Source of the DNA: Aquificaceae bacterium
GTDB taxonomy: Bacteria > Aquificota > Aquificia > Aquificales > Aquificaceae
Direction of reading: 5' to 3'
Assembly: GCA_025056375.1 (NCBI GenBank)
Contig: JANWWH010000002.1
Coordinates: forward strand, 1 to 57,026
Length of the DNA stretch: 57,026 nucleotides
Position numbers and translations under genes: made by a program. The first letter of the stretch is position 1. Each line of letters starts with the position of its first letter. The notes under the pieces are model-generated. The model worked only from the letters and a program-made list of their open reading frames with translations, was not told the origin of the DNA and ran no database searches. Below are positions 14,453 to 16,060 of the stretch, piece after piece.

Positions 14453-15529
14453 ATGAATACGCAGGTGGAGCTCTACGACAAGGTTCTCGAAGGAGAGAGG
14501 TTAACGCCCGAGGAAGCCCTCAGCCTTTTTGAAGAAGACCTACTTACCCTCGGATACCTTGCCAACGAAGCAAGGAAAAGACTACATCCGGAAAATGTGG
14601 TCACCTTCGTCATAGACAGAAATGTGAACTACACCAATGTTTGCGTAGCGGGTTGCAAGTTCTGTGCCTTCCAGAGAAAGATAGGGTCTCCCGAAGGTTA
14701 CGTGCTCTCTAAGGAGGTGGTTCTCCAAAAGGTGGAAGAGCTCCTGAGCTGGGGGGGCACTACGCTCCTCATGCAAGGCGGACTGAACCCAGACCTACCC
14801 CTTTCCTACTACGAAGAGCTCATAAGCTCCATAAAGGAAAACTTCCCTCAGGTGCAGGTTCATTCCTTCTCCGCACCAGAGGTGGTCTATCTGGCAAAGA
14901 TAGAAAGGCTTAGCATAAGGGAGGTTCTTAAGAGGCTAAAAGACGCAGGTCTTGACTCTCTTCCCGGTGGAGGTGCGGAGATACTCTCTGAGGAGGTAAG
15001 GGACTTTTTAAGCCCGGGCAAGTGTGGGGTGGAGGAGTGGGAGCTGGTTCACAAAACCGCCCACGAGCTCGGTATGACCTCCACCGCCACCATGATGTTC
15101 GGTCACATAGAAAGACCAGAGCATATAGTGGAGCATCTGGAAAGGGTTAGAAGAATTCAAGATGAGACGGGTGGATTTACCGCCTTCATACCCTGGACCT
15201 TCAAGAAGGGAAACACCCAACTGGACACCTTGGAGGAGAGCCCTCCAACCTACTACCTTAAGGTGCTTGCCCTCTCAAGGCTTTATCTTGACAACTTCAA
15301 AAACCTTCAGAGTTCTCATGTTACACAGACTATGCAGGTGGGTGTAGTGGGCCTCCACTTTGGTGCCAATGACTTGGGCAGTGTAATGATGGAAGAGAAC
15401 GTTATATCTTCCACTTCCTACAGGGTTAGTATTCCGAAAGTGGAAGATATGGTGGAGAATATAAGGTCTGCGGGTTTCATACCAGCCCAAAGGGACACCT
15501 ACTACAGGATACTGAAGCTATTTAACTGA
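14453..15529 (+). CDS. mqnC: Dehypoxanthine futalosine cyclase (radical SAM)
   Basis: The 358-residue protein is a radical SAM enzyme with the Cys-x3-Cys-x2-Cys cluster motif at Cys64, Cys68 and Cys71. It is preceded by the family stretch Thr-Phe-Val-Ile-Asp-Arg-Asn-x-Asn-Tyr-Thr-Asn-Val and ends with Gln-Arg-Asp-Thr-Tyr-Tyr-Arg-Ile-Leu, both typical of MqnC and not of MqnE. It cyclises dehypoxanthine futalosine in the futalosine route to menaquinone. The ATG at 14453 is preferred over an in-frame TTG at 14399 inside apgM: it gives the normal family length and has a -10-like box nine bases upstream. No other mqn gene is in the window. Confidence 0.93.
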   Translation: MNTQVELYDKVLEGERLTPEEALSLFEEDLLTLGYLANEARKRLHPENVVTFVIDRNVNYTNVCVAGCKFCAFQRKIGSPEGYVLSKEVVLQKVEELLSWGGTTLLMQGGLNPDLPLSYYEELISSIKENFPQVQVHSFSAPEVVYLAKIERLSIREVLKRLKDAGLDSLPGGGAEILSEEVRDFLSPGKCGVEEWELVHKTAHELGMTSTATMMFGHIERPEHIVEHLERVRRIQDETGGFTAFIPWTFKKGNTQLDTLEESPPTYYLKVLALSRLYLDNFKNLQSSHVTQTMQVGVVGLHFGANDLGSVMMEENVISSTSYRVSIPKVEDMVENIRSAGFIPAQRDTYYRILKLFN

Positions 15530-15544
15530 TCGTAGGCTTTTTCC

Positions 15545-15795
15545 ATCAGACCGCTGAGAGTTTAGTCCTTTAGGATTTGCCAAAAGGGTATAAAGGTAGA
15601 AGGGCTCAGGATAGTTCCTATTTCTATAGTCATTTATTCAACTATAGAAACAGGTCTTGCAGGTAGAGGGACTATAGGCTCCTCTATGAGCTTGAGGTAA
15701 CTCAAGCTCAATACACTCCTCAATTTAAGGAGTGTATCCTGCCTTGCCCTTACAGCTATACGGCATTGGACGCCAACTACTCCGTATAGCTATTT
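15545..15795 (-). ncRNA. Predicted structured small RNA, minus strand, between mqnC and gltB
   Basis: No open frame fits this gap. Five hairpins are seen. 15754-15763 pairs with 15782-15791 (10 bp, with an inner TTGG/CCAA hairpin). 15711-15720 pairs with 15728-15737 (10 bp, 7-base loop). 15687-15696 pairs with 15701-15710 (10 bp, 4-base loop). 15664-15669 pairs with 15681-15686 (6 bp). 15621-15630 pairs with 15641-15650 (10 bp). GCAGG at 15659-15663 pairs with CCTGC at 15738-15742 and encloses three of these hairpins with no unpaired base, a perfect four-way junction. An outer stem joins 15600-15605 and 15746-15751. A consensus promoter (TTGACA, 17 bases, TATAAT) lies at 15800-15828 on the minus strand and predicts a start near 15793. 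The 3' end is not defined; no intrinsic terminator is evident. It matches no RNase P, tmRNA, SRP or 6S signature I could find by eye. On the plus strand one loop would be GTAA (GNRA type), so the strand rests on the promoter. Confidence 0.7.
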
Positions 15796-15799
15796 AACT

Positions 15800-15828
15800 A
15801 TTATATGCAGAATTCTAAAAAATGTCAA
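15800..15828 (-). promoter_or_regulatory. Consensus sigma-70-type promoter of the structured RNA
   Basis: On the minus strand TTGACA (15828-15823) is followed after exactly 17 bases by TATAAT (15805-15800). Both hexamers are perfect. It is the best promoter seen in the window and points away from gltB into the hairpin cluster, with no coding frame downstream before mqnC ends. Confidence 0.85.
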
Positions 15829-15839
15829 TTGGATGAACA

Positions 15840-16060
15840 TCTATATTTGTCCAAAAACAACTATTTTACTGGAGACTAGTAACCTATACTTTTTTCCTAT
15901 CCTAAGGGTCTATATTAGACACAGCGCCTTCCACATAGTTCCTTCCTTCGGTTATGGTTCAGGACCCTTTCCTGCACTTTCATTGAATGAAAGGACTGGC
16001 TAAATTCAGAGAGATACTATATTAAAATATTCAGCCATTTAACCTTTAGAGGTGAAGAGG
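15840..16060 (+). other. Leader and upstream region of gltB with three small hairpins
   Basis: The region is non-coding and AT-rich. It has three short perfect hairpins: GTCTA/TAGAC at 15908-15920, CAGGA/TCCTG at 15960-15974, and CTTTCA/TGAAAG at 15977-15993. A TATATT box at 16018-16023 could start gltB transcription near 16030, giving a leader of about 30 bases with AGAGGTG before the ATG. The hairpins would then lie upstream of that start, where they could be protein-binding sites or part of a longer transcript. Confidence 0.4.

Follow-up and report, generated by a model that had tools for sequence, protein, structure and literature searches.

TnpB, the nuclease ancestor of CRISPR-Cas12, forms pairs with its omegaRNA that are usually specific. 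Guide RNA loci without a nuclease gene exist as the standalone IscB omegaRNAs of the OMEGA literature, which belong to the Cas9 lineage and not to IS607 TnpB, and guide RNAs of the TnpB type are used outside the transposon life cycle in the case of TldR. The omegaRNAs (or reRNAs) of IS607 TnpB, e.g. those of ISXfa1 (PMC10711439) and the RAGATH-18 reRNA of ISFba1 (PMC11061315), are positioned at the right end of the transposon, where they overlap the 3' end of tnpB; they are built of stem-loops, with a pseudoknot beside the guide, and their scaffold stops at the transposon boundary, after which a host-derived guide follows (PMC10711439, PMC11061315). In the IS607 TnpB of ISXfa1, this pseudoknot is required for activity (PMC10711439). 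Gene-free derivatives of tnpB transposons are also already known, namely the palindrome-associated transposable elements (PATEs) of IS605-type transposons, short multicopy elements that retain the ends and whose movement is presumed to take place in trans (PMC3119063, PMC7290912).

Here we describe a locus between mqnC and gltB, within a window of 57,026 nt (the whole stretch of DNA analyzed, from an Aquificaceae genome), which probably derives from an IS607-type tnpB transposon as a non-autonomous element reduced to its guide RNA, comprising a left end, a promoter, a complete omegaRNA and a right end. It resembles the IS607 TnpB reRNAs in position, boundary and stem-loops, with a candidate pseudoknot in the corresponding place, but its RNA also occurs without tnpB, has its own promoter and folds into a compacted four-way junction; unlike the RAGATH-18 reRNA, it matches no Rfam family. 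Like PATEs it is short, gene-free and multicopy with the ends kept, but it is of the IS607 (serine recombinase) rather than the IS605 type and retains a complete promoter-driven guide RNA, a feature absent from the PATE descriptions (PMC3119063, PMC7290912). In contrast to TldR guide RNAs, its copies are mobile and no TldR gene stands beside it: the neighbors are mqnC and gltB, with no adjacent nuclease-dead TnpB-like gene.

The whole mini-element spans 279 bp (15611-15889; all features below are on the minus strand), with its left end at 15889 and its right end at 15611, the positions at which homology to the copies on contigs C15 and C50 stops, and the flanking DNA differs from copy to copy. 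No open reading frame of 50 or more amino acids lies on the minus strand within these limits; having neither tnpA nor tnpB, both of which an IS607 element encodes, it is therefore a non-autonomous derivative and not an IS607 element proper. Its left end (15833-15889, GTATAGGTTACTAG...ACAAATATAGATGTT) is 74% identical over 57 nt to that of a tnpB-bearing element on contig C188 of a close relative of the same genus (G005), and left ends of the same type precede tnpB in two complete Aquificota genomes (G007 and G064) and tnpA on contig C57 of the window's own genome. Its ends are shared with an element of the IS607 serine recombinase type: on C188 the start of an IS607 tnpA follows the same left end, and on C57 an intact tnpA follows a related one. 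Several copies, transposon ends and no transposase gene also characterize PATEs and other miniature non-autonomous IS. A 12-bp direct repeat (AGCTATTTAACT, at 15516 and 15788) was rejected as a target duplication, as its second copy lies inside the element and is also present in the C15 copy, and no consensus flanking motif (TAM) could be read by eye in the left-end flanks.

The window's genome holds three full copies of the RNA (in the window, on C15 and on C43) and one left-end copy at the end of contig C50. The C15 copy, 94% identical to that of the window, sits between gatB and an aminotransferase gene, and the C43 copy is diverged. A covariance model built from standalone copies only (R1) finds 16 matches in G005, at least 13 of them without a recognizable tnpB, degraded copies in two further genomes (G004 and G009), and tnpB-linked matches in G007 and G064; in these last two, the genomes with intact tnpB, it finds no standalone copies, and the remaining Aquificota genomes searched yield zero matches. 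In relatives, the neighboring genes differ and the model finds nothing at those places; a conserved mqnC-gltB intergenic RNA was rejected on these grounds, and the insertion between the two genes is lineage-specific. Separately, the stretch just upstream of gltB (16014-16052, CAGAGAGATACTATATTAAAATATTCAGCCATTTAACCTTT...) is conserved before gltB in at least five genomes of the genus (loci L011-L014 and L016) and is probably a promoter or leader element. In G005, the copies on C45 and C211 (L032, L034) carry ...AATTTAAAACATTCTC... upstream of the RNA, and the same sequence recurs, as TTTACTACTCCAGAAGAA.TTAAAACATTCTC, next to the left end on C188 (L028), which points to a second repeat, belonging to the host or to a mobile element, in all three contexts.

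The link to tnpB comes from the position of the fold. In three G005 copies, the 3' half of the RNA directly follows the tnpB Zn-ribbon codons. The element on C188 of G005 has a broken tnpB and a right end 96% identical over 77 nt to that of the window element. In G007 and G064, R1 matches three sites each, all across the 3' end of tnpB (E 1e-20 to 1e-28), in genes of about 369 codons, five uninterrupted and one G064 copy frame-shifted, whose product is identified as TnpB by both NCBIfam NF040570 and Pfam PF07282. In the alignments, the 5' hairpin, the GCAGG...CCTGC junction with its three arms, and the end hairpin all fall on tnpB coding sequence, with about 75 extra coding bases (72-79) inside one arm. 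These matches in G005, G007 and G064 occupy the place of an omegaRNA (reRNA), and the whole fold is accordingly assigned, from sequence and position, as the putative omegaRNA of an IS607-type tnpB transposon, with TnpB binding and guiding predicted. Because a model of standalone copies finds the same fold at the omegaRNA position of tnpB, the window element is best regarded as a miniature IS607-type transposon. The interval matched no family when checked against Rfam, in keeping with the sequence-only reading that no known class fits by eye, and identity with RAGATH-18 was rejected since its Rfam covariance model gave no match even at E <= 10. At two G064 tnpB right ends (L221, G/AAGGAGGAACT-ATG; L222, AAAGGGGGAACT-ATG), the end abuts precisely on the ATG of an open frame, as if to provide the downstream gene with a ribosome-binding site.

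The minus-strand RNA runs from a 5' hairpin through a perfect four-way junction to an end hairpin, and the hairpin stems, the GCAGG/CCTGC stem and the promoter lie where the initial inspection of the sequence had placed them. The 5' hairpin (15752-15793) derives from tnpB codons (EVAGVQW) and matches tnpB coding sequence in the C188 element, G007 and G064; 8 of the 12 pairs of its helix 1 change on both sides. The junction is closed by 15738-15742 (5' strand, the CAGG/GCAGG side) pairing with 15659-15663 (3' strand) around three hairpins with zero unpaired bases, an arrangement that covariation confirms and in which the C15 copy swaps a G-C for an A-U pair. Junction hairpin 1 (15711-15737; 5/12 pairs changed on both sides) is a compact substitute for a coding-sequence hairpin, its tnpB counterpart being the arm ACTTGT...ACAAGT; the arm corresponding to junction hairpin 2 (15687-15710; 4/10 pairs) encloses about 72-80 nt of coding sequence in tnpB-linked copies; and junction hairpin 3 (15664-15686), proximal to the right end, is nearly invariant in sequence, with 98.4% of cells paired. 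The right-end hairpin adjoining the guide (15617-15654) has 97.3% of cells paired and three pairs changed on both sides, and lies downstream of the tnpB stop region in the C188 element, G007 and G064. A candidate 5-bp pseudoknot joins UAGUU (15775-15779) to AACUA (15612-15616), directly before the guide and analogous in position to that of the ISXfa1 reRNA (PMC10711439); 71 of 79 cells pair, vs 20-41 of 63-64 when slid, with strands that are mostly invariant and a single G064 mismatch. No two copies share the sequence that comes after the right end (GGAACTAT), as expected of a variable host-derived guide, and the host flank at 15591-15610 is the prospective guide, of a presumed length of about 20 nt. 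One stem of the earlier description did not survive: the outer AAGGGC/GCCCTT pairing is chance and no part of the structure, since AAGGGC (15600-15605) falls beyond the limits of the element and neither arm is present in the 94%-identical C15 copy.

The prospective guide has one other match in the genome (C21:54-77). Window positions 15533-15609, the 3' flank of mqnC, are identical to C21:1-77 over exactly 77 nt, and the two diverge where the element begins. This overlap is the signature of a branch in the assembly graph; C21 may come from members of the population whose site is empty, or it may be another junction, and is not proof of the former.

This RNA is under structural constraint. The fold of the minus strand of 15580-15800 (-93.7 kcal/mol, z = -9.4) was far below that of shuffles, with 0 of 200 as low, and that of the 189-nt element (-86.0) was below 400 of 400 random windows of the same contig. 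The plus strand of the same interval reached z = -7.4 against shuffles, and a plus-strand RNA was rejected given its less stable fold and lack of a promoter. Compensating base changes, which the sequence-only reading had proposed to look for, are present: across eight standalone copies, pairing is possible in 94.9% of cells, and both partners have changed in 22 of 67 pairs, compared with about 40% and 3-6 when slid, counts that come from related and hence not independent copies. For subtype B (12 copies), 22 pairs change on both sides vs 5-10 slid, in an alignment fitted to the model and leaning towards it. As all 12 copies have the compact hairpins in common, subtype B probably post-dates the loss of tnpB. 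The window and C15 copies keep all modelled pairs, and in many of the G005 copies the promoter is gone or the fold is incomplete. One standalone G005 copy (L227, C44:907-1065) has lost junction hairpin 3 and keeps 98% of the remaining pairs and a TTGATT-N17-TATAAT promoter, a natural minimized variant of the scaffold.

The promoter (15800-15828) is, as first reported, an exact sigma70 consensus, TTGACA-N17-TATAAT (12 of 12 positions), with a predicted start near 15793, and is the sole match at one mismatch or fewer in the 57-kb window, where 0.13 are expected. Four copies whose 60 nt of upstream sequence cannot be aligned (window, C43, and C241 and C44 of G005) score 9-12 of 12 for this motif, exactly at the RNA start. 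The tnpB genes of G007 have TTGACA/TTGATA-N17-TAAAAT immediately before the ATG, and this may be the source of the promoter in standalone copies, at least in those of the C43 subtype. The other G005 copies are promoterless and look like relics.

With respect to partner proteins, contig C57 encodes an intact IS607 TnpA (NF033518, E 1e-52), after which a tnpB of the cognate family begins, to be cut within its first codons by the contig end. A complete cognate tnpB was not found in the assembled genome of the window, nor any further piece on its other contigs, and the cognate tnpB copies of G005 are broken or partial. The one full-length TnpB of the window's genome (C33:8327-9811, L157) is a single-copy, 495-codon frame of another family, sharing 32% identity with the cognate TnpB over 295 aa; no right-end scaffold was found near it, and for want of a linked scaffold it was rejected as the partner.

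We propose that an ancestral element would have lost tnpA and most of tnpB, retaining the left end, the whole omegaRNA and the right end, with the promoter now directly before the RNA and two coding-sequence arms of the junction reduced to short hairpins. The TnpA of a larger relative in the same cell would then move the mini-element, and such mobilization in trans is likely. The transcript would read through the right end (past 15611), so that about 20 nt of host flank become the guide, and cognate TnpB could use this RNA in trans to cut insertion-free sites, favoring retention of the element; such guiding, a prediction, is plausible. What weighs against this account is that a complete cognate tnpB was not found in the assembled genome of the window, that those of G005 are broken or partial, that intact tnpB and standalone copies do not occur together in G007 and G064, and that many G005 copies are eroded. 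That guide-RNA-only elements are double parasites, depending on TnpA for movement and on TnpB for RNA-guided retention, with an omegaRNA that its own promoter has freed from the tnpB mRNA and that selection has shrunk to a minimal four-way-junction scaffold, we put forward tentatively, as somewhat short of an even bet.

Other readings account for part of these data. The sequence-only reading, that of a new sRNA gene of the chromosome without ties to mobile elements, fits the strong fold, the promoter and the lack of an Rfam match. Its structured RNA on the minus strand, driven by a promoter of its own, does stand, but a fixed locus for a new class of trans-acting or housekeeping RNA is not supported. 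In its 3' half the RNA coincides with the right end of IS607-type tnpB transposons, and a mobile-element end had been named beforehand as evidence against that reading. Dispersed copies with transposon ends speak against any housekeeping or regulatory sRNA, gene neighbors are not conserved, and the multicopy state and the tnpB homology already refute such a gene, to which we give almost no credence. A domesticated host regulatory RNA serving another effector, such as the unrelated C33 TnpB, would at least have in that full open frame, with its resemblance to cognate TnpB, a candidate; the missing scaffold near C33, a guide that matches only its own flank and C21, and the usual specificity of TnpB-omegaRNA pairs make this very improbable.

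We consider it rather unlikely, if to be taken seriously, that the element is an inert miniature IS, a PATE-like relic whose ends are moved by TnpA in trans and whose RNA guides nothing, the hairpins persisting through recent origin or through a role of the DNA itself in transposition. Gene-free PATE ends of tnpB transposons are known (PMC3119063, PMC7290912), no intact cognate tnpB was found assembled alongside, and several copies are decaying. Such a relic leaves unexplained, however, why four copies with unrelated upstream DNA all have a sigma70 promoter where the RNA starts, as well as the compensatory upkeep of the long-range junction stem, the 5' hairpin and possibly the pseudoknot, and the IS607 serine recombinase acts on double-stranded circles, for which hairpins are unneeded (PMC10711439).

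In the literature searched, of which coverage was partial, we found no description of an IS607-type mini-element with a complete promoter-driven omegaRNA, and priority is not claimed. The guide-RNA-only derivative adds an omegaRNA family from thermophiles that has no Rfam entry, and its minimal standalone scaffold reveals what the RNA embedded in coding sequence can do without. The element suggests that omegaRNAs may part from the tnpB gene and be mobilized alone, much as guide RNA and nuclease gene are naturally split in CRISPR systems, and it makes testable the exploitation of RNA-guided nucleases in trans by non-autonomous transposons.
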